Origin: Nocardia sp. BSTN01
GTDB taxonomy: Bacteria > Actinomycetota > Actinomycetes > Mycobacteriales > Mycobacteriaceae
Assembly: GCF_015354405.1 (NCBI RefSeq)
Contig: NZ_JADKYP010000009.1
Location: 1-64,000 of the forward strand
Length of the DNA stretch: 64,000 nucleotides
Direction: 5' to 3'
Every line of letters starts with the position of its first letter. Within the stretch, counting starts at the first letter, position 1. The translations under genes and the position numbers were made by a program. Below, piece by piece: positions 27,869-54,042 of the stretch. Below the pieces are notes generated by a model that searched no databases, had not been told where the DNA came from, and saw only the letters and a program-made list of their open reading frames with translations.

Positions 27869-28576
27869 ATGACCGAGCCCACCTCACAGCCGCCGGCCAG
27901 GCCCACCCCACAGCCGCCGGCCGGGCCGGAACACACCTGGGGCGCACCGCAGACCCAGCCGGCCGCCATCTGGTCGACGAAGAAGTCGCTGGCCGCGGTC
28001 GGCATCGCCGCGGTGATCGCGGCGGCCGGGGGCGGCGTCGTCTACGCGGCCACCCATTCCGGCGGCAGTGAGCACGGCGGTCCGGGCGGCCCCGGAACCA
28101 GCTGGGGTGGCGGGCGCGATGCCGCGGGTCCCGGCGGTATGGGCATGACGGGCGCGAGCCTGCACGGCCAGTTCGTGATCTCCGACGGCAACGGCGGCTA
28201 CACCACCGAGATCACCCAGACCGGCACGGTGACCGCGGTCTCGGACACCTCGATCACCGCCAAGAGCGCCGACAACTTCAGCCAGACCTACACGATTTCC
28301 GGCAGCACCCAGCATTCGGAGGTGAAAGTCGGTGACACCGTGCGCATTCAGGGCACGGAGGCGAACGGGACCGCGACCGCGACGGCGATCACGAGCGGCA
28401 CCGAATCCGGTCAGATGGGTGGCCGCACCGGACGGTCGAGCCGCTTCGGCGGGATGGCGCAGGGCGGCGATCCGGGGCAGAACGGTCCTGGCCCGGGTGG
28501 TGCGGCTCCCGGACAGGGCGGCGGACCCGGTATGGCACCGCCGATGGACGGCGCGCCGAATCAACCCAACGGCTGA
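27869..28576 (+). CDS. membrane-anchored exported protein with small OB-like domain
   Basis: A 235-residue protein. A Pro/Gln-rich cytosolic N-terminus (residues 1-36) precedes one membrane helix (about 40-60) and a Gly-rich spacer. A compact beta domain follows (about 95-165) with ITQTGTVTAVSDTSITAKS and VKVGDTVRIQGTEANG, reminiscent of DUF5666-like OB folds. The end is Gly/Pro-rich. AAGGAG precedes the ATG. It is divergent from the TrcRS-like operon, suggesting joint control of an envelope function. Confidence 0.7.
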   Translation: MTEPTSQPPARPTPQPPAGPEHTWGAPQTQPAAIWSTKKSLAAVGIAAVIAAAGGGVVYAATHSGGSEHGGPGGPGTSWGGGRDAAGPGGMGMTGASLHGQFVISDGNGGYTTEITQTGTVTAVSDTSITAKSADNFSQTYTISGSTQHSEVKVGDTVRIQGTEANGTATATAITSGTESGQMGGRTGRSSRFGGMAQGGDPGQNGPGPGGAAPGQGGGPGMAPPMDGAPNQPNG

Positions 28577-29747: not shown

Positions 29748-30350
29748 ATGCCGAGCCGACGCCGACTCACCCCCGAGCAGCGCCGCGACGAATTGATGGA
29801 CGTGGGCGCGCGATTGTTCGGCGAACGCTCATTCGACGAGGTCGCGATGGAGGACATCGCCGCCCAGGCCGGCGCCTCCCGCGCCCTGATGTACCACTAC
29901 TTCCCCACCAAGGGGGAGTTCTTCGCGGCCATCTGGAAACGGGCGCACGATCGACTGCTCGCCGAACTGCGCATCGATCCCGAGGAGCCGGTTCGCACCG
30001 CTGTCTACCGCAGCCTGGTGGCCCATCTGGATTTCTACCGCGCCCACATTCCACTGGTTCTCATCGCCAACCGCACCGCCTTGGCGGCCGATCCGGCGGT
30101 ACGCGGTCCGGTGGTCGAGGATCTGAATGCCCTGTGCGAGCGCGTCCTCGACGCATGTGGCGCCACGGGGCATACGCGCGAGGTGGCCGCCGCGGCGCTG
30201 GCCGGATGGATCGCCTTCATCCGCGAGGTGGCCGTCGAATGGCTTGCCCATCAGCGTATTTCGCGCGACGAAGTGCTGCGGATGTGCATGGCGACCTTGG
30301 ACGCCACCGCGGGAGCACAGCTCGATCTGACCGCGCCGCCGCGACGCTGA
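29748..30350 (+). CDS. TetR-family transcriptional regulator
   Basis: A 200-residue regulator. The helix-turn-helix lies within residues 10-55 (RDELMDVGARLFGERSFDEV, DIAAQAGASRALMYHYFPTK), and a helical ligand domain follows. ATG at 29748 was chosen because it is the first in frame after the divergent promoter. The ligand is unknown. Neighbours are DUF4345 (divergent) and the ABC-2 permease (convergent). Confidence 0.88.
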   Translation: MPSRRRLTPEQRRDELMDVGARLFGERSFDEVAMEDIAAQAGASRALMYHYFPTKGEFFAAIWKRAHDRLLAELRIDPEEPVRTAVYRSLVAHLDFYRAHIPLVLIANRTALAADPAVRGPVVEDLNALCERVLDACGATGHTREVAAAALAGWIAFIREVAVEWLAHQRISRDEVLRMCMATLDATAGAQLDLTAPPRR

Positions 30351-30391
30351 GGCACTGGGCACGGCACCGGCGCCGGGCGAGCCGTGGTCGC

Positions 30392-31144
30392 CTATCGCTG
30401 GGAGAGCCGATCGAATATCGCACTGGCCGCGCCGAATCCGAGTACCGCGAGCCCCGCACACCAGGCGAGGGCCCATGCGGCGCTTCCGCCGGTCCCGCTC
30501 GAATTCAGCAGGCCGCGCACGGTGTCGACCACGGGTGTGGCGGGTTGATAGTCGGCGAAGCCGCGCAGCCATCCGGGCATGGTGGAGGTCTGCACGAACG
30601 CGCTGCTGATGTAGGGGATGAACATGATCGCGTAGGTCATCCCGCCGGCCGCTTCCGGATTCTTCGCCACCAGCCCCAGCGCCACCGCGATCCAGCAGAT
30701 CGCCACCACGAACAGCACGATCATGGCCAGTGCGCCCAGCCAGCCCAGCGCATCCGCGTGCGGGCGATAGCCGAGCAGTACGGCCACGGCCACCGCGATC
30801 ACGATGGCCGCGAGATTGCGCGCCACCCCCTCGCCGACGTGCCCGGCGAGGATCGCCTGCCGGAACATCGGCAGCGTCCGGAACCGGTCGATACTGCCCC
30901 TGGTCATATCCGCCGAAACCGCGGTCGCGGTGATGGACGCGCCGAATCCGGTGCACAACAACATGATTCCGGGCACCACATAGTCGAGGTAGGAGCCGCC
31001 GACGTCGATCGCGCCGCCGAAGACGTAGGTGAACAGCAGCATCACCAGGATCGGCATGAGCAGCGAGATGATCAGCGTGTCCGGACTGCGCAGGGTGTGC
31101 CGGGCGCACCGGCGGAACATCACCGCCGAATCCGCGGCGATCAT
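30392..31144 (-). CDS. ABC-2 type (DrrB-like) exporter permease
   Basis: A 250-residue permease with six hydrophobic segments. It starts MIAADSAVMFRRCARHTLRS and contains the conserved GRP-like signature of daunorubicin/lipid exporters in the region DMTRGSIDRFRTLPM. It follows the GT1 glycosyltransferase gene by 2 bp, so the two are one operon. The ATP-binding partner (DrrA-like) expected beside it is missing from this window. The pair suggests export of a glycosylated lipid or natural product. Confidence 0.85.
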   Translation of the reverse strand: MIAADSAVMFRRCARHTLRSPDTLIISLLMPILVMLLFTYVFGGAIDVGGSYLDYVVPGIMLLCTGFGASITATAVSADMTRGSIDRFRTLPMFRQAILAGHVGEGVARNLAAIVIAVAVAVLLGYRPHADALGWLGALAMIVLFVVAICWIAVALGLVAKNPEAAGGMTYAIMFIPYISSAFVQTSTMPGWLRGFADYQPATPVVDTVRGLLNSSGTGGSAAWALAWCAGLAVLGFGAASAIFDRLSQR

Positions 31145-31146
31145 CC

Positions 31147-32424
31147 TCACCGGGCTGCCGCCTCGACGATATCGGCGGCATGGGCGGCGGCGCCCTCGGT
31201 GCGCAACGTGGCCGCGAATTGATGTGCGCGAGCGCGGCGTTCGGGTTCCAGTAGCGTGGTCACGCCGCGCACGAGTCGTTCGGTGGTGAGGTCGGTGAAA
31301 CGCAGATGTGCGCCGAGGCCGAGCCGGTCCACCTGCCCGCCCCACATCGGCTGTTCGAACGACACCGAGCACACCAGCGTCGGCAGACCGGCGCGCAGAC
31401 TCTCGAACAACGTGCCGATCCCACCGTGATGCACCGCGGCCGCGCAGTACGGGAACACCAGGTCGTGGGCGAACGGGCCGACCACCTTCACGGTCGAATC
31501 ACCCTGTCTACGAACGGTTTCCATACCGCTCCAGCCCGCACTCACCAATGCCCGCACGCCGAGCCGCCGCGACACCTCGCGCACCATGGCCAGGACGGCG
31601 GCGGGATCGCTGATCGGCATACTGCCGAATCCGAAGAACACCGGCGCCTCCCCCGCGCGCACCCAGGACAGGATGGCGGTGTGGTCGTCGCCGAGTTCGC
31701 CGACCGCATGCCGGGTCCGCTGATCCAGCGTCAGGAATCCGGTGAACGGGCGCCGGCCGTCCCACTGCGCCGGTAGTCCGGGCACCAGCGCCGGATCGTA
31801 GATCTGCACCTCGGGGACCCGCCGCCGCGCCAGCACCGCCGCGATACTCGCCCGCGACTTCGGCAGTCCGAGCATGCCGCGCAGATCGTTCAGATAGCGC
31901 ATGAACACGATGCGCCGCAGATTCTCGGCCACCGCCCATGTCGCGCGATTCACCGGCGCGGGCGGCGCCCAGTTCGCCGGCAGCGCACCCGGGAAGGGGT
32001 AGGCCCCGTTCGCCCGCGCCGGGTAGTAGTGCAGACTCACCAGCGGCACATCCATCGCCTCGGCGACCGAGCAGGCCCGGTCCTCGGTGACGGTGCTCGC
32101 CACGATCAGGTCGGCGCCCGCGCACACCTCGACCACCTCGCGGTTCATCCGATCGGCGTAGTCGGCCATCTGCCGGGCGACCAGTTGCATCAGCCGCAGC
32201 GTATTGCCCGCGGCGAGGGCCCGCTGCCCGTCCTCGGAGCTGTAGAGCTGCTGCACATCGGGCCCGCAGGCGCGCGCGGCGAGCCCCGCCGAGGTGGCGA
32301 AATCGACCAGATTCGGCGGCACGCCCAGCACCACGTCGTGGCCCCGGCGCCGCAATTCCAGCCCCAGGGCCAGCACCGGTTGCACGTCGCCGCGGGTGCC
32401 GGTCAGCGGAATGGCGATTCTCAT
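31147..32424 (-). CDS. GT1 glycosyltransferase (MGT/sterol-glucosyltransferase type)
   Basis: A 425-residue two-Rossmann-domain UDP-sugar glycosyltransferase. The N-terminus (IAIPLTGTRGDVQPVLALG) is typical of sterol, macrolide and mycobacterial glycopeptidolipid transferases. The C-terminal donor motif is present around residues 330-380 (FPYCAAAVHHGGIGTLFESL, then E-Q-P within SFEQPMWGGQV). The acceptor cannot be told from sequence. It is encoded with the lone ABC-2 permease and divergently from the GT4-P450 fusion, suggesting one biosynthetic locus. Confidence 0.9.
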   Translation of the reverse strand: MRIAIPLTGTRGDVQPVLALGLELRRRGHDVVLGVPPNLVDFATSAGLAARACGPDVQQLYSSEDGQRALAAGNTLRLMQLVARQMADYADRMNREVVEVCAGADLIVASTVTEDRACSVAEAMDVPLVSLHYYPARANGAYPFPGALPANWAPPAPVNRATWAVAENLRRIVFMRYLNDLRGMLGLPKSRASIAAVLARRRVPEVQIYDPALVPGLPAQWDGRRPFTGFLTLDQRTRHAVGELGDDHTAILSWVRAGEAPVFFGFGSMPISDPAAVLAMVREVSRRLGVRALVSAGWSGMETVRRQGDSTVKVVGPFAHDLVFPYCAAAVHHGGIGTLFESLRAGLPTLVCSVSFEQPMWGGQVDRLGLGAHLRFTDLTTERLVRGVTTLLEPERRARAHQFAATLRTEGAAAHAADIVEAAAR

Positions 32425-32489: not shown

Positions 32490-35108
32490 ATGGGATATCG
32501 AACAACCGGGCGCGTGGGTAACGTGCCGGGCGTGCACATCGCCATGTTCATGGACTATCACCCGGCGACGCTGGGCGGGGTGCAGACCGCGGTGGCCGCA
32601 TTGCGCCACGGCCTCGAACGCGCCGGACATCGGGTGACGCTGTTCGTGGCGCCACTGTCGGGCGCGGCGATGCCGCCGGATATGGCATCCGACGACGGGG
32701 TGGTCGAACTGGCTCCCCTGGCCGGCGCGGTGGTGAACGGCTTTCCGATGGTGCTGCCGACCGCGCGCAACGCCGCGCTGATCGATGCCGCCTTCGCCGC
32801 CCGCGGCCCCGTCGATCTCGTCCACACCCACACCACCTACGGTGTGGCGATCGCGGGGATGAAAGCCGCACGGCGGCACCGTATTCCGCTGATACACACC
32901 GCGCAGAGCCGCGACGACGCCTTCATCGAGCACACCGCCCCGGCGCCCTACCTCTCGGCGCTCGCGCTGCGAATCCTGCACGGCCGCTTCGTCACCCATC
33001 CCGCGCGGATGCCGCGGGGCCCGCAGAGCCGGGCGGCCCGGCACGCGTGGCACACCATCGTGGGCCAGGGGCAGGCCGCCGACCGGGTCATCGCACCGAC
33101 CCGCCATTTCGCGGATCTGCTGCTCGACCACGGCCTCACCCGGCCGATCCGGGTGGTCTCCAACGGCGTCGACGACGCACTGCTCGACGATCAGCGGCCC
33201 GCGGCCGCCCGCGACATCGACGCTCCGCTGCGGTTGCTCTGGTGCGGACGGCTCTCCGCGGAGAAGCGACTGCTCGAATCGATCGAGGCGGTGCGGCGCG
33301 TCCCGGCCTGCACCCTCGACGTATACGGCGAGGGCGAACTGTCCGCACGCGCGGCCGCGGTGGTCGCCGAACACGGGCTCTCGGATCGAATTACACTGCA
33401 CGGCCGGGTTTCTCAGCAGCAGTGCCTCGATGTCATGGCCGCCGCGGACGCCCTGCTGTTTCCGTCGTGGGGTTTCGACACCCAGGGCATGGTGCTGCTC
33501 GAAGCGATCGCCACCGGCCTGCCTGTGTTGTACTGCGATCCGGACCTGGCCGAATCCGTTCCGGCGGGCGGCGGTCTGCGCGCCGGCGACGCCTCCCCCG
33601 CGGCGCTGGCGGAGACGATCGGCGTGCTGGTGAACGACCGCGGCGGGCTGCTCTCGATGCGTGCCGAGATGACCCGTCATCGCGATTCGGTGCGACAGTC
33701 CGGCCGCATCGACGCGATCGTCGAGGTCTATGAGCAGGCACGGGCCGACCTCGAGCCCGCCGCACAGCGACCGGTGCCACAGCGGCTGTCCGACGTGCCC
33801 ACCGCGCCCGGCGCCCTGCCGCTGATCGGCCACAGCCTGCGCGCCCTGCGCGACGCCCCGGGATTCGTGACCTCGCTCGGCGAACTCGGCCCGATCGTGC
33901 GCATCCGGTTCGGCCGCAAGACCGGCTATGTGCTGACCACGCCGGAGCTGGTGCGCGAGATCGGTCTCGGCGACGCGGAATTGAATCGCGACGATCTGCG
34001 GGAAGCGATCGCCGATGTGGCCGGCGGTTCGGTGAACGTACTGCGCGGCGCCGAACACAAACTGCGCCGGCGCATGATCGCGCCCGCCCTGCGGCAGAGC
34101 CGGCTCGCCGAATACACGGTCACCGCGGCCGAACTCGCCGACACCTGGTCGGCCGCACTGCCCGCGGGCGTCCGGGTCGACCTGATGGACGAGGCGCACG
34201 GCCTGATCCTCGACACCGTGTCCTCGACCCTGTTCACCGCCGAATTCAGCGAGGAGGCCCGGCGCCGGATTCGCGACAACGTGCCGTGGCTGCTGAGCCA
34301 GGTCATTCTGCGCACCGCCCTGCCGCCTCAGATCCGCCGCCTGCGGGTGATCGCGAATCGGCGCTGGGAGCGCAAGGCGCGCCACCTGCGGGCCGCGATC
34401 GGCGCCGCGATCACCGAGTACCGCCGCCGCGACGAGGATTTCAACGATGTGGTGTCGGCGTTGATCCGTCACACCGATCCCGAGACCGGCGCCCGACTGT
34501 CGGACGACCACATCATCGACGAAGCCATTCTGATGCTGGCCGGTGGGGTGGGGTCGATGGCCTCGCTCACCGGCTGGCTCTGGCACGAGGTGATGCGGCG
34601 TCCCGATATCGCCGAACGGGTACGAGCCGAACTCGACGATGTGGTCGGCGCCGGACCGGTCCGCGCGGAACACATCGGCAAGCTCAACTACCTGAAACAG
34701 GTTGTCTCGGAAACTCTTCGGTTCTGGGGGCCGTGGATCAGCGCCGGGAACGCGTCCGGGCCGGTGACCGTCGGCGGGCTCACCATTCCCGACGGCACCG
34801 CCATCATGTTCAGCCCATATCTGGTCCAGCACGACCCGTGCCACTTCCCGAATCCCGAGGCCTTCGATCCGGACCGCTGGTCGCCCGCCCGCACCGGTGA
34901 GATCGACAAGCAGGCGAACCTGTCCTTCGGCGTCGGTCGCCGGCGCTGCCTGGGCGATCACTTCGCGCTGCTGGAGATCACGCTCGCCTCGGCGGCGCTG
35001 CTGGCGCGATGGCGGCCCGAGCCGGATCCGGCCTACGTCGTGCGGGCCTCGAACCGGGACTTCGTCCTCTCGCCGTCGGCGATTCCGGTGACCCTGCACC
35101 GGCGCTAG
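32490..35108 (+). CDS. fusion of GT4 glycosyltransferase and cytochrome P450
   Basis: One uninterrupted 872-codon gene encodes two enzymes. Residues about 15-425 form a GT4 glycosyltransferase: LGGVQTAV near the start, LLWCGRLSAEKRLLESI and the donor-side E-x7-E region FDTQGMVLLEAIATG. Residues about 435-872 form a P450: PGALPLIGH, the ExxR motif in SETLRFWGPW, and the heme loop FGVGRRRCLGDHFA. The I-helix reads AGGVGSMAS, lacking the usual acid-Thr pair. ATG at 32490 has a GGGGAC box; a GTG at 32532 is the alternative. The 3' end shares CTAG with the convergent DinB-like gene. Intact motifs on both sides argue that both halves fold. Confidence 0.85.
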   Translation: MGYRTTGRVGNVPGVHIAMFMDYHPATLGGVQTAVAALRHGLERAGHRVTLFVAPLSGAAMPPDMASDDGVVELAPLAGAVVNGFPMVLPTARNAALIDAAFAARGPVDLVHTHTTYGVAIAGMKAARRHRIPLIHTAQSRDDAFIEHTAPAPYLSALALRILHGRFVTHPARMPRGPQSRAARHAWHTIVGQGQAADRVIAPTRHFADLLLDHGLTRPIRVVSNGVDDALLDDQRPAAARDIDAPLRLLWCGRLSAEKRLLESIEAVRRVPACTLDVYGEGELSARAAAVVAEHGLSDRITLHGRVSQQQCLDVMAAADALLFPSWGFDTQGMVLLEAIATGLPVLYCDPDLAESVPAGGGLRAGDASPAALAETIGVLVNDRGGLLSMRAEMTRHRDSVRQSGRIDAIVEVYEQARADLEPAAQRPVPQRLSDVPTAPGALPLIGHSLRALRDAPGFVTSLGELGPIVRIRFGRKTGYVLTTPELVREIGLGDAELNRDDLREAIADVAGGSVNVLRGAEHKLRRRMIAPALRQSRLAEYTVTAAELADTWSAALPAGVRVDLMDEAHGLILDTVSSTLFTAEFSEEARRRIRDNVPWLLSQVILRTALPPQIRRLRVIANRRWERKARHLRAAIGAAITEYRRRDEDFNDVVSALIRHTDPETGARLSDDHIIDEAILMLAGGVGSMASLTGWLWHEVMRRPDIAERVRAELDDVVGAGPVRAEHIGKLNYLKQVVSETLRFWGPWISAGNASGPVTVGGLTIPDGTAIMFSPYLVQHDPCHFPNPEAFDPDRWSPARTGEIDKQANLSFGVGRRRCLGDHFALLEITLASAALLARWRPEPDPAYVVRASNRDFVLSPSAIPVTLHRR

Positions 35109-35617
35109 CGGCGGCGCAACAGCACTCCGCGGATGAACGCCGCCTGACCGGAGTGCTGGATATCGTCGTCGACCACGCTGATCAGCCGCACGCCGAGGGT
35201 CACCGGCGGATCCCAGCGGGTGTCGACGATCCGCGGCAGGTCGGCGTCGGCGAGGGTGCGGACGTAGTCGACGGTGCGGTCGTGCACGGCGTCGTGATAG
35301 CCCAGCAGCAATTCGGCCGAGATACCGCCGAGGGCCGCCACCTCGTCCGGATCGTCGCCGTATCCGGTGGCCGACTCGTCGAAGGGCAGATCGAAGCGGC
35401 GCGACCAGCCGGCCGCCGTCCACACCTGTTCGGTGCCGGCCACATCGGCGATGTGGTCGTCCTGCACGCGGGTCAGATGCCAGATCAGCCAGGCGATGGA
35501 ATTGGCCCCAGGGTCCAGCCGCGCGGCCAGTTCCTCCTGGGTGAGCCCGGCGACCGCGCCGTGCACGTTCTCCTTGATCCGCCCGAAGGCGTCTGCCAGC
35601 AGATCGGTGCTCGTCAT
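35105..35617 (-). CDS. DinB-family protein
   Basis: A 170-residue four-helix-bundle protein of the DinB/mycothiol-dependent maleylpyruvate isomerase-like superfamily. The metal-binding His pattern is visible as SIAWLIWHLTRVQDDHIADV, then a third His in DDDIQHSGQAAFIRG. Such proteins often bind a divalent metal and may be thiol transferases. ATG at 35617 was chosen over upstream frames. Its stop overlaps that of the convergent fusion gene. Confidence 0.82.
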   Translation of the reverse strand: MTSTDLLADAFGRIKENVHGAVAGLTQEELAARLDPGANSIAWLIWHLTRVQDDHIADVAGTEQVWTAAGWSRRFDLPFDESATGYGDDPDEVAALGGISAELLLGYHDAVHDRTVDYVRTLADADLPRIVDTRWDPPVTLGVRLISVVDDDIQHSGQAAFIRGVLLRRR

Positions 35618-35821
35618 GGTGGTATGCAAACACACCGGACCGACAGTTCGGCGGTACCGCGGTGAATATGCCCGCTCACAAGGTGTTTCACGGTGATTCA
35701 CCGGCCCGTCCCGCACCGGCGTGCCGAGAGTGGAAGACCGACAGAGAGTTCGGTACGTTCCTGCTACCCTGGACGACAGTCCGGTTACGGATGTCCGGCC
35801 GGGCGGCTAACCAAGCCTCTT

Positions 35822-35855
35822 GTCCTACAACAGATGTGGGGTGACGCTGTAGGAC
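35822..35855. promoter_or_regulatory. inverted repeat upstream of the tandem P450 operon
   Basis: GTCCTACA (35822-35829) and TGTAGGAC (35848-35855) are exact inverted copies with an 18-bp spacer, 60 bp before the TTG start of the first P450 gene. It could be an operator with widely spaced half-sites or a leader hairpin. The rest of the 297-bp gap 35618-35914 shows nothing else convincing. Confidence 0.4.
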
Positions 35856-35914
35856 CATACCGACAGCGGAATTCTTCGTCGCGCTCGACAGTTCATTCTC
35901 TGGAGTCACATCTT

Positions 35915-37195
35915 TTGACCACACCACGTTCTGCACTGTCCGCACTCCCCGACGCGGGCGGTCCCGCCACCTGCCCGGTCCAGCACATGGGCTCCCCGGT
36001 CGACACCGACGGTCCTCGGATTCTGCTGGACACACCGGAATTCGCCGCCGATCCGCACGGCACGTATCGGGAGATGCGCCGTCGCTACGGTTCCCTGGTC
36101 CCGATCGAGCTGTCCCCCGGCGTCCCGGCCACGCTCGTGATCGGCTACCACACCGCGTTGCGAATCCTCAACGATCCCGAGCACTTCCCGGCCGACCCCC
36201 GGGCGTGGCAGGACACCATTCCCGAAGACTGCCCGGTGCGGCCGATGATGCAGTGGTATCCGAACGCGCTGCGCAATGCCGGCAACGTCCACCTGCGCTA
36301 CCGGCAGGCGTATACGGCGGCCGTCGACGGTATCGACCTGCACGCGCTGCACAGCACGGTGGAGAAGATCGCGGTCCCGCTGATCAACAGCTTCTGTGAA
36401 GCCGGATCGGCGGATCTGGTGTCGCAGTACGCCTTCCCCCTGGTCTTCGAATCGCTGAACCGCATGGTGGGCTGTTCGGCCGAGCTGGGTCAGCGAGTGG
36501 CCACCGGTATGGCCGCGCTGTTCGACACCGTGAACGCGGCCTGGGGTATGGAACATCTGAGCCAGGCGCTGATGGAGCTGATCCACCTGCGCCGCGCCGA
36601 CCCCGGCGACGACGTCACCTCGCGGCTGGCCCACCACCCGGCCAACCTCAGCGACGAGGAGATGCTCTACAACCTGATCAGCTTCTACGGTGCGGGCATC
36701 GAGCCCCAGCAGAACCTGATCGCCAACACCCTGCTGCTGATGATCACCGACGACCGGTTCGGCGGCGGCATGCTCGGTGGCAGTCTCTCCACCCGCGACG
36801 CACTGGACGAGGTGTTGTTCAAGGATCCGCCGATGGCGAACTTCTCCATCAGCTATCCGCGCCAGCCCATCCTGATCGACAACGCCTGGCTGCCCGCGCA
36901 TCAGCCGGTCGTCATCAGCCTGTCCGCGTGCAACAACGATCCGGTCATCGCCGGCGGCGACCGCACCGGCAACCGCTCACATCTGGCCTGGAGCGCCGGA
37001 CCGCACGCCTGCCCGGCCCGTTCGGTGGCCTACCTGGTGGTGCAGGACGCGATCGACCAGCTGCTCGACGCACTGCCGGAGATGCGCCTGGCCATCGAGC
37101 CGAGCGAAATCACCTGGCGTCCCGGCCCGTTCCACCGTGCGATGGCAGCGCTGCCGGTCACCTTCCCCGCATCTCCTCCGTTGAATCTGGTGTAA
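35915..37195 (+). CDS. CYP157-like cytochrome P450 lacking the ExxR arginine
   Basis: A 426-residue P450. The heme-binding loop is intact (WSAGPHACPAR, Cys ligand), but the normally invariant K-helix ExxR reads EVLF (in LDEVLFKDPP), and the I-helix AGIEPQQ lacks the catalytic Thr. Loss of ExxR with retained Cys is the known peculiarity of the Streptomyces CYP157 family, usually paired with a CYP154 enzyme, as here. TTG at 35915 was chosen because GGAG stands 9 bp upstream. The stop overlaps the ribosome site of the next gene, so the two are co-translated. Confidence 0.85.
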   Translation: MTTPRSALSALPDAGGPATCPVQHMGSPVDTDGPRILLDTPEFAADPHGTYREMRRRYGSLVPIELSPGVPATLVIGYHTALRILNDPEHFPADPRAWQDTIPEDCPVRPMMQWYPNALRNAGNVHLRYRQAYTAAVDGIDLHALHSTVEKIAVPLINSFCEAGSADLVSQYAFPLVFESLNRMVGCSAELGQRVATGMAALFDTVNAAWGMEHLSQALMELIHLRRADPGDDVTSRLAHHPANLSDEEMLYNLISFYGAGIEPQQNLIANTLLLMITDDRFGGGMLGGSLSTRDALDEVLFKDPPMANFSISYPRQPILIDNAWLPAHQPVVISLSACNNDPVIAGGDRTGNRSHLAWSAGPHACPARSVAYLVVQDAIDQLLDALPEMRLAIEPSEITWRPGPFHRAMAALPVTFPASPPLNLV

Positions 37196-37205
37196 GGAGC
37201 TTCCG

Positions 37206-38423
37206 ATGAAGCAGGAACCACTGGTGCTCGATCTGACCGGCGCCGATATCCAGGCCGAGAACGAGCGCATCCGGGAACGCGGTCCCGTGGCGCTGGTGGA
37301 GTTGCCGGGCGGAGTGCCGGCCTGGTCGGTGACCGATGCGGTCGTGTTGAAGAATCTGCTGTCGGATCCGCGAGTGTCGAAGGATCCGCGTCAGCACTGG
37401 TCGGCCTACATCAACGGTGACATCAACGAGTCGTGGCCGCTGCAACCGTGGGTGGCGGCGCAGAACATGTTCACCGCGTACGGAACCGAGCATCGGCGGC
37501 TGCGCAAACTGGTCGCCCCGGCGTTCACGCATCGCCGCACCACCGCGATGCGTCCGCGGATCGAGGCGATCGTGGCGGATCTGCTCGAACGGTTGAGCGC
37601 GACCGCGCCGGGCGAGGTCGTGGACCTGCGCCCGAACTACGCCTACCCGGTGCCGATCCGGGTGATCAGCGAACTGCTGGGCGTGCCCGGCCATCTGGAC
37701 TCGGCCATCCACGCCTGTGTCGACGGCTTCTTCGACACCTCGTTCACACCGGAGCAGGCGCAGGCGAACTTCATCGAGATGGGCCGCCTGATCGGTGAAT
37801 TGGTGGCGTTCCGCCGGGAGAACCCGGGTGACGACATCACCAGTGTGCTGATCGCGACCCGCAACGAGGACGGCGCCCAGCTCTCGGAGACCGAACTCGT
37901 CGACACCCTGATGCTGGTGATCAACGCCGGCCACGAGACCACGCTCAATCTGATCGACCAGGCCATCGTGGCACTGCTGACCCATCCGGAGCAGCGCGCC
38001 GATGTGGTCCAGGGCCGGGTGCCGTGGGCGGAACTGGTCGAGGAGACGCTGCGCTACCAGGCGCCGGTCGCGCATCTGCCGCTGCGATACGCCGTCGAGG
38101 ACATCGAGGTCGGCGAGATCCGGATTCCGAAGGGGGAGGCGATTCTGGCCTCCTACGGTGCGGCCTGCCGCGATCCGAAGGTGCACGGCGAGACCACCGC
38201 CGAGTTCGACGTACACCGGGCGAACAAGGAACATCTCGCCTTCGGCCACGGCGCGCACCACTGCCTGGGCGCTCCGCTGGCGCGCATGGAGGCCGCCATC
38301 GCGTTGCCCGCGCTGTTCGAACGCTTCCCGGATCTGCGGCTGGCGGTCGACCCCTCCGAGCTGAAGCCGCTGGGCAGTTTCATCTCCAACGGGCACATCT
38401 CGGTTCCGGTGTACCTGCGATAG
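37206..38423 (+). CDS. CYP154-like cytochrome P450
   Basis: A 405-residue bacterial class I P450 with all canonical motifs: I-helix AGHETT, K-helix EETLR, and heme loop FGHGAHHCLGAPLAR. It begins 10 bp after the CYP157-like gene behind TAAGGAGC. In Streptomyces the CYP157-CYP154 pair usually ends a conservon operon (histidine-kinase-like, Roadblock, DUF742, GTPase). None of those genes is seen here, so the pair has been separated from them or recruited alone. Ferredoxin genes are also absent nearby. Confidence 0.9.
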   Translation: MKQEPLVLDLTGADIQAENERIRERGPVALVELPGGVPAWSVTDAVVLKNLLSDPRVSKDPRQHWSAYINGDINESWPLQPWVAAQNMFTAYGTEHRRLRKLVAPAFTHRRTTAMRPRIEAIVADLLERLSATAPGEVVDLRPNYAYPVPIRVISELLGVPGHLDSAIHACVDGFFDTSFTPEQAQANFIEMGRLIGELVAFRRENPGDDITSVLIATRNEDGAQLSETELVDTLMLVINAGHETTLNLIDQAIVALLTHPEQRADVVQGRVPWAELVEETLRYQAPVAHLPLRYAVEDIEVGEIRIPKGEAILASYGAACRDPKVHGETTAEFDVHRANKEHLAFGHGAHHCLGAPLARMEAAIALPALFERFPDLRLAVDPSELKPLGSFISNGHISVPVYLR

Positions 38424-38430
38424 TTCGGCC

Positions 38431-38462
38431 GGTTCCGCACCGGCGCTTTCCGGTGCGGAACC
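38431..38462 (+). terminator. terminator hairpin after the P450 pair
   Basis: GGTTCCGCACCGG and its exact complement form a 13-bp stem with a 6-nt loop, 7 bp after the P450 stop. There is no T-tract. It also lies about 65 bp upstream of the cyclase-family gene and could attenuate read-through. Confidence 0.7.
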
Positions 38463-38526
38463 GCCTACCGTGAGATCTCGTGCGGGCAGCGGAGAAGAGG
38501 GCAGTGCCACACCGGGAGGCGAACCC

Positions 38527-39234
38527 ATGGCGTATTCGGGCGTGCGGAACCTGTCGCATCCACTGTCCGCCGAGGTCGTCTCGGTGTTCCCCGGCGATCC
38601 CGCGCCGCGGATCGACACCATCGCCACTCTCGGCGAACACGGCTTCCACCTGCAGGCCGTCACCGTCGGCGAACACACCGGAACCCATTGGGGCGCACCG
38701 GCCCACTTCACCGCCGGTGCGGCCACGGCCGATCGGCTCGATCCCGAGGATTTCGTCCTGCCCGGCATCCGGATCGACATCAGCGCGCGGGCGGAACGCG
38801 ATCGCGATTACGCGGTGACCGTCGACGATCTGCTCGAATGGCAGCAACAGCACGGCCCCTTCCCCGCCGAGGCCGCCGTCCTCCTGCACACCGGCTGGGA
38901 AAGATACTGGGGCACCGATGATTTCGCGTCGATGGACGCGCAGGGCCGCATGCATCACCCCGGTTTCTCGGTGGCGGCGGTGCATTGGCTGCTCGACCAC
39001 GGCGTACTCGGCCGGCGCGGCGCCCTCGGCACCGACGCCTTCAGCCCCGATATCGGCACCGACGACAGCTACCGAGTATCGAAGCTGTTGTACCGTGAGC
39101 ACCGCCTCAGCCTGGAAATCCTCGCTCACCTGGGGGAACTGCCGGATCGGGACTTCACCGTCGTCGTGGGCGGATTCGTCACCGAGGGCGGCGCGGGGTC
39201 ACCGGCGTCGATCTACGCGTTGATCGAATCCTGA
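38527..39234 (+). CDS. cyclase-family (kynurenine-formamidase-like) hydrolase
   Basis: A 235-residue protein of the cyclase/KynB-like metal hydrolase family. The metal motif, normally HxGTHxDxPxHF, reads HTGTHWGAPAHF: the histidines are kept but the Asp is Gly, so one metal ligand is altered. A downstream GALGTDAFSPDIG segment matches the family's second conserved block. GGGAGG precedes the ATG at 38527. No tryptophan-catabolism genes are nearby, and the substrate is unknown. Confidence 0.8.
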   Translation: MAYSGVRNLSHPLSAEVVSVFPGDPAPRIDTIATLGEHGFHLQAVTVGEHTGTHWGAPAHFTAGAATADRLDPEDFVLPGIRIDISARAERDRDYAVTVDDLLEWQQQHGPFPAEAAVLLHTGWERYWGTDDFASMDAQGRMHHPGFSVAAVHWLLDHGVLGRRGALGTDAFSPDIGTDDSYRVSKLLYREHRLSLEILAHLGELPDRDFTVVVGGFVTEGGAGSPASIYALIES

Positions 39235-51046: not shown

Positions 51047-51056
51047 ACTCCCTAGT

Positions 51057-51130
51057 AGCGGGGACAGGATTTGAACCTGCGACCTCTGGGTTATGAGCCC
51101 AGCGAGCTACCGAGCTGCTCCACCCCGCGT
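51057..51130 (-). tRNA. initiator tRNA-fMet (anticodon CAT), copy 1
   Basis: The minus strand folds into a 74-nt cloverleaf. Acceptor 5' strand is CGCGGGG; the D-arm has AGCTCGGTAGCT, the anticodon loop CTCATAA, and the T-arm GGTTCAAATCC. Initiator hallmarks are present: an unpaired C1.U72 at the top of the acceptor stem and three consecutive G-C pairs at the base of the anticodon stem. CCA is not encoded. The second copy at 53969-54042 has the same sequence. Confidence 0.96.
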
Positions 51131-53958: not shown

Positions 53959-53968
53959 TCTTCACTAG

Positions 53969-54042
53969 TAGCGGGGACAGGATTTGAACCTGCGACCTCT
54001 GGGTTATGAGCCCAGCGAGCTACCGAGCTGCTCCACCCCGCG
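53969..54042 (-). tRNA. initiator tRNA-fMet (anticodon CAT), copy 2
   Basis: Same 74-nt sequence as the copy at 51057-51130, including the C1.U72 mismatch and three G-C pairs in the anticodon stem. The six bases just upstream (to about 54047) are also shared, after which the promoters diverge. Two initiator genes in the same orientation 2.9 kb apart suggest a segmental duplication. Confidence 0.96.

Follow-up and report, generated by a model that had tools for sequence, protein, structure and literature searches.

Does a single gene of Nocardia sp. BSTN01 fuse a GT4 glycosyltransferase to a cytochrome P450, as the initial annotation claimed, and, if so, what would its product do? We addressed this in a 64,000-nt stretch of the genome (positions 1 to 64,000 of contig NZ_JADKYP010000009.1, hereafter the window) and in the genomes of its relatives.

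One open frame encodes a GT4 domain followed by a P450

32490..35108, +, GT4-cytochrome P450 fusion gene, 872 aa (open frame, Pfam, conservation in relatives)
32490..33764, +, GT4 half, residues 1-425, Pfam domains at 29-389 (Pfam, structure-sequence match)
33243..33266, +, GT4 motif CGRLSAEK, residues 252-259 (motif scan)
33468..33506, +, GT4 acidic motif WGFDTQGMVLLEA (D-x7-E), residues 327-339 (motif scan)
33720..33809, +, inter-domain linker, residues 411-440, variation biased to third positions (orthologue codon comparison)
33804..35078, +, cytochrome P450 half, PF00067 at residues 439-863 (Pfam, solved relative)
34539..34556, +, I-helix AGGVGS, residues 684-689, Gly-Ser in place of the acid-Thr pair (alignment)
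34707..34721, +, K-helix SETLR (ExxR), residues 740-744 (motif scan)
34926..34955, +, heme-ligand motif FGVGRRRCLG, residues 813-822 (motif scan)

No internal stop was found across all 872 codons of 32490-35108, and the GC periodicity was of the coding type. Pfam placed the GT4-type glycosyltransferase at residues ~29-389 and the cytochrome P450 at 439-863, in agreement with the claimed continuous frame, and the three motifs named for it (CGRLSAEK, SETLR and FGVGRRRCLG) were all recovered at the residues given above. A codon-composition gene caller returned the same frame with a start at 32514; the start at 32490 is uncertain because many homologues align only from about residue 15. The predicted structure of the fusion had a low-confidence mean pLDDT of 66.7, leaving domain contacts unreadable from the model, and the best 50 of its 1937 fold matches were all P450s.

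The fusion is conserved and its junction evolves as coding sequence

Among the matches listed, a GT4 part and a P450 part shared a single frame in 70 of 151 Nocardia genomes, with orthologues ranging from about 55 to 96% identity across tens of assemblies; the closest named relatives (91-96% identity) were Nocardia aobensis, kruczakiae, mikamii, cerradoensis, africana, elegans and nova. The gene was cut by a contig end in G045, and G092 and G129 each carried one TAA within the matched stretch, yet the frames listed for them were open over 857 and 854 codons. Outside Nocardia, a search of 401 family genomes located the fusion in three genomes (G268, G446 and G457) of two sister genera, and an order-level search of 397 genomes at E 1e-110 added no further fusions. 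Searching plasmid sequences with the fusion yielded 68 records; coverage stayed below 80% in every one, and the best places lay below 60% identity. The best 20 of the 68 covered the P450 part.

Fetched loci provided 63 P450 rows, with some loci fetched twice, and the window a 64th; the P450 was fused in 49 of these 64, alone in 14 and broken in one (L073). At this last locus, from a genome that is 83% complete (G350), GT4 and P450 lay in different frames; the split was taken as poor assembly because the neighbouring operon genes were in pieces too.

All frames of nine close orthologues were open across the junction. In these orthologues the variable sites at codon positions 1, 2 and 3 numbered 4, 7 and 25 over the 51 junction codons 400-450, and 3, 6 and 17 over the linker. 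That two genes were joined artificially through read-through, a frameshift or misassembly is thus vanishingly improbable, given the identical fusion in tens of divergent assemblies and a junction that varies codon by codon; a chance frame was ruled out on the same grounds. Thus, because the fusion occurs in 70 genomes of the genus and three of sister genera and its linker evolves codon-wise, it is real, conserved and old, and not an assembly error. The single-gene claim of the initial annotation held, with neither a stop or frameshift between the halves nor absence from relatives being found.

The P450 half has lost its I-helix acid and kept its heme ligand

The P450 half scored 192.1 bits against PF00067 (cut-off 22.8). 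Its best solved relative by sequence was CYP170A1, albaflavenone synthase (3dbg, E 5.1e-56), and its best NCBIfam models were pentalenene oxygenase and albaflavenone monooxygenase, at scores well below the equivalog cut-offs (NF045812, 275.7 versus 800; NF051859, 257 versus 700). The fusion differs from these types in its attached GT4 and in an I-helix reading GVGS instead of the GSET of CYP170A1, a change of the acid to Gly and of Thr to Ser; also unlike them, none of the scanned ORFs encoded a terpene synthase. The acid-alcohol pair, which is common but not defining in P450s, was therefore not found in the window P450. The earlier statement that the I-helix lacks the acid-Thr pair stands for the acid and needs amending for the Thr, which is not simply absent but replaced by Ser.

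Across the 64 rows the I-helix read GVGS in 56 and GLGS, GIGT, SIGS and GIES in two each, the GIES variants belonging to two relatives of genus g4 that retain the acid. Since 62 of the 64 rows lack the acid, yet all 64, P450-only relatives included, keep the heme Cys and ExxR, loss of the acid is, as read from the alignment, a feature of a whole P450 lineage that retains the heme ligand and ExxR.

P450 relatives of the EryCII/DesVIII type are glycosyltransferase activators that have lost the heme Cys. A P450 half that likewise no longer oxidises and instead supports the glycosyltransferase structurally or activates it would fit the fusion itself, the lost I-helix acid and the GT1 gene adjoining the fusion. 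We nevertheless consider this improbable: the invariant heme Cys and ExxR set the window lineage apart from EryCII/DesVIII-type activators, and the model TIGR04515 (P450-derived glycosyltransferase activator) was absent among the best 25 of 27 NCBIfam families for the fusion.

The GT4 half carries a D-x7-E motif and has unfused relatives

Both the N- and C-terminal Pfam domains of the GT4 family exceeded their cut-offs (PF13439, 74.3 bits versus 28.5; PF13692, 64.7 versus 27), with PF13579 at 61.7 and PF00534 at 54.5 bits. The E-x7-E region reported in the initial annotation proved to be D-x7-E: Asp stood in the first position in 56 of the 57 rows that had the motif and Glu in one (L076), five of the 62 pieces being without the motif. 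The top solved match was a phosphatidylinositol mannosyltransferase (4n9w, E 2e-6), and the fusion differs from such PimA-like GT4s by having D-x7-E rather than E-x7-E and a C-terminal P450. Activity of both halves is assumed here, because the P450 is without the I-helix acid and the GT4 without the first Glu of E-x7-E.

Relatives consisting of the GT4 alone, at 49-56% identity, occurred in at least 36 genomes, 31 of these without the fusion, and at least four more at 47-48% identity in genomes with it. A GT4 related to that of the fusion was also seen in a second, PKS-NRPS-like locus (L054:9482-19876, L091, L092, L048 and L087). No P450 accompanied it in L054-L058 and L090-L092, and one N. 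cyriacigeorgica genome has, in such a locus, a fusion whose GT4 is shortened.

Genes next to the fusion

31147..32424, -, GT1-type glycosyltransferase, divergent from the fusion, conserved cassette member (Pfam, NCBIfam, locus comparison)
30392..31150, -, ABC-2 (DrrB-like) permease, overlapping the GT1 3' end, conserved cassette member in many Nocardia (Pfam, locus comparison)

Both genes were confirmed as had been described, and the noted lack of an ATPase was borne out, no ABC ATPase occurring among the 19 distinct window ORFs scanned by Pfam (23.2-42.9 kb). The cassette of fusion, GT1 and permease was observed in opposite orientations beside the same operon in different Nocardia (L035:6904-12544 and L065:7561-13163). 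One comparison of the loci drew on 13 of its 15 gene queries, those at 27870 and 29749 being left out as wrongly framed.

The ORFs at 35105-39234 (DinB-like, two P450s, cyclase-like) had close orthologues after the fusion in L019-L027 (part), L039 and L066. These belong to the N. nova side of the tree, with only weaker P450 matches elsewhere, and the ORFs were set aside as fusion partners on account of this restriction. Within them, positions 35990-37195 hold a divergent P450-like ORF, followed by the second P450 and the cyclase-like gene; this stretch gave no Pfam match at E 0.001 and weak NCBIfam P450 matches. The window also contains a putative TetR-type regulator, recognised by eye, at 29749-30351, and two tRNA-Met genes of identical anticodon at 51055-51129 and 53968-54042 (-).

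A lipid-type operon recurs beside the fusion

Comparison of 74 loci revealed families other than the cassette that recur beside the fusion: a dikinase, a FAAL-nucleotidyltransferase, an acyl carrier protein, a thioester-reductase-like SDR, an NDK-like protein, an AfsA/ScbA-like protein and a UbiA-like protein, joined by a nitroreductase in many copies of the operon. The window genome (7.79 Mb) carries it on another contig:

G000:C130, about 155.4-165.8 kb (L093:5427-15772 in G000:C130:150000-169900), seven-gene operon in the window genome, genes in order (query matches)

Here the operon lies about 155-166 kb into a 367-kb contig and the fusion 32 kb into its own, so that the pathway partner is not visible from the window alone; the 19.9-kb operon stretch gave no match to P450, GT or permease queries.

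The dikinase consists of PPDK_N and PEP-utilisers domains with no further C-terminal Pfam domain. Its full-length copy in the window genome passed NF004881 (939.2 versus a cut-off of 883); in the comparison with PRK06241.2-2 'phosphoenolpyruvate synthase', the name 'PEP synthase' is putative, and the Rph, PigC and RedH models scored far under their cut-offs. The SPLTH motif of the dikinase was kept in 21 of 21 rows and the NDK His in 45 of 45. One half of the FAAL-nucleotidyltransferase is a fatty-acyl-AMP-ligase and the other a nucleotidyltransferase, the model of the latter region (mean pLDDT 59.7) matching aminoglycoside nucleotidyltransferases best by fold (E 1.1e-4). The listed variants retained the motifs of the nucleotidyltransferase and of the carrier protein; the entry was blank for 11 of the 38 nucleotidyltransferase rows. 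The UbiA-like protein scored 25.8-29.1 bits against PF01040, below its cut-off of 34.2 and likewise below cut-off in NCBIfam; its Asp-rich motif 1 was like DExKDxxYD among the variants listed.

Both operon AfsA proteins scanned passed the ScbA/BarX model NF041195 (202.3 for P0010 and 221.5 for the window genome, against 200), which makes a glycosylated butyrolactone-type signal a serious alternative for the core of the pathway. In that case AfsA would form the lactone core, as it does in Streptomyces, leaving only its decoration to the fusion. We regard this as unlikely: the available portion of PMC5735094 mentions no FAAL, nucleotidyltransferase, NDK-like, dikinase or UbiA-like gene for gbl clusters, and no gblR-like receptor was recognised in the operon among the neighbours scanned.

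A P450 without the GT4 half flanks the operon in genera g29 (L074 and L084) and g4 (L085 and L086) and at one g16 locus (L079), and at two other g16 loci (L080 and L081) the P450 was present with no operon found within 19.9 kb. In a genome of another family of the same class (G595, L111:3556-12737), dikinase, SDR, NDK-like, AfsA, UbiA-like and nitroreductase matches were seen together with a free-standing nucleotidyltransferase without the FAAL half; no P450 or GT match lay within 19.9 kb. A plasmid search with the NDK-like protein gave nine records at 29-39% identity, from Streptomyces plasmids and one Enterobacter plasmid, and none of the seven other operon genes was matched in the plasmid loci L115, L116 and L117.

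Fusion and operon marker co-occur across Nocardia

Operon presence in the 151 genomes was scored by the FAAL-nucleotidyltransferase marker alone at ≥50% identity, a threshold lying in a gap between 51% and the 44% of the best match in genomes not counted. The marker was found in 71 genomes, 70 of which had the fusion among the matches listed: 70 genomes carried both, none the fusion alone, one the marker alone (G110) and 80 neither (Fisher p 6e-43, not corrected for kinship). The exception is a genome of 88% completeness in which the marker extends up to the edge of a 5-kb contig. Fusion and marker lay within 20 kb of each other in 39 of the 70 genomes and farther apart in 31, the window genome included; seven of these 31 had both on one contig, 0.29-9.2 Mb apart, and 24 had them on different contigs of draft assemblies. 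This co-occurrence with lipid-building genes suggests that the fusion probably finishes a sugar-coated lipid. The operon link gives the fusion a testable role, likely as a tailoring step of a pathway present in several genera of the family.

One old fusion, later losses and the question of channelling

The P450 tree was built from 47 of the 64 rows and the GT4 tree from 46 of the 62. On the P450 tree, the fused state required four changes, namely one gain, the broken L073 gene and one loss each in N. brasiliensis and N. wallacei, and the P450-only genes of g16, g29 and g4 fell outside the fused clade, with 82% support for the separating branch. This agrees with a single ancient fusion event, followed by loss of the GT4 half on two occasions. 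P450-only copies persist in both species: the gene of N. brasiliensis is a second copy (G031), and that of N. wallacei is sister to the N. cyriacigeorgica fusion with the shortened GT4, its leader resembling, by eye, the linker of that sister. The N. brasiliensis cassette copy, with its P450 lacking the GT4 half, was seen at L045:7847-11347 and also at L049 and L060. On the GT4 tree, the PKS-NRPS-linked GT4-only genes nested within the fused set with 82% support and may reflect either P450 loss or a separate origin.

The initial annotation had further proposed that hydroxylation and glycosylation are channelled in one protein, which is not supported as stated because in other genera the same operon is flanked by P450 relatives that have no GT4 half. 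The halves could instead be two independent enzymes of one pathway, neither channelled nor mechanistically coupled, their fusion serving only to tie their expression. Consistent with such independence are the P450 standing by itself next to the operon, the GT4 alone in the PKS-NRPS-like locus of other Nocardia, the at least two GT4 losses in the P450 tree and the low confidence of the linker in the predicted model. Against it, the fused state was kept in 70 of the 71 marker-bearing Nocardia genomes (among the matches listed) and linker variation is mostly at third positions, so that we hold independence to be possible, if somewhat doubtful.

A proposed pathway

Building on the observed fusion, its conservation, the operon and their co-occurrence, we somewhat favour the reading that the fusion serves an undescribed acyl-lipid or glycolipid pathway as a bifunctional tailoring enzyme, acting with the GT1 and the ABC-2 permease. 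Every reaction, the reaction order and the product are inferred from family membership. The FAAL half of the FAAL-nucleotidyltransferase would load an acyl chain onto the carrier protein, the AfsA/ScbA-like enzyme would couple it to a small (phospho-)alcohol, and the SDR would reduce the product. Dikinase, nucleotidyltransferase and NDK-like protein might place or activate a phosphate, after which the UbiA-like membrane protein would take up the activated intermediate. The P450 half would then oxidise the lipid, the GT4 half and the divergent GT1 would attach sugars, and the permease would export the product using an ATPase encoded elsewhere.

The glycolipid or terpenoid-glycoside chemistry suggested in the initial annotation is plausible. 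The candidate aglycone genes elsewhere in the window genome resemble acyl activation and phosphoryl transfer, and the terpenoid side is hinted at by CYP170A1 as nearest solved relative of the P450 and by the UbiA-like protein. A bolder and rather unlikely version would have the dikinase, the ANT-like nucleotidyltransferase-FAAL and the NDK-like protein turn an acyl chain into a phosphate- or nucleotide-activated, prenyl-diphosphate-like intermediate, followed by UbiA-like coupling or cyclisation and by oxidation and glycosylation in one polypeptide. If true, this would be terpene-like chemistry from fatty acids and a new natural-product class, with one chain that both oxidises and glycosylates.

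Comparison with known systems

As judged from the available portions of PMC5550956 and PMC5735094, gamma-butyrolactone clusters of Rhodococcus contain an AfsA-type gene, as the operon does, and both have a ScbA/BarX-type enzyme with two AfsA stretches. According to the same portion of PMC5735094, gbl clusters consist of gblA and a TetR receptor, often with an epimerase (gblA-gblR-gblE in Rhodococcus), whereas the AfsA of the operon sits among acyl- and phosphoryl-transfer genes; the Nocardia operon is not described in the available portions of either paper. A search by title and passage found no description of the fusion or the operon in the openly licensed literature, a scope that makes this weak evidence of absence. 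Among the best 60 of 253 solved-structure chains, no best stretch spanned both halves.

The known fusion partners of P450s, as in CYP102, CYP116B and CYP51-ferredoxin, are mostly redox domains, and we know of no P450 joined to a glycosyltransferase. The present protein resembles these fusions in joining a P450 to a second domain and differs in that the partner is a sugar transferase. The conserved fusion is confirmed, its architecture is unusual, and the finding is enlarged by its tie to an undescribed lipid-type pathway.
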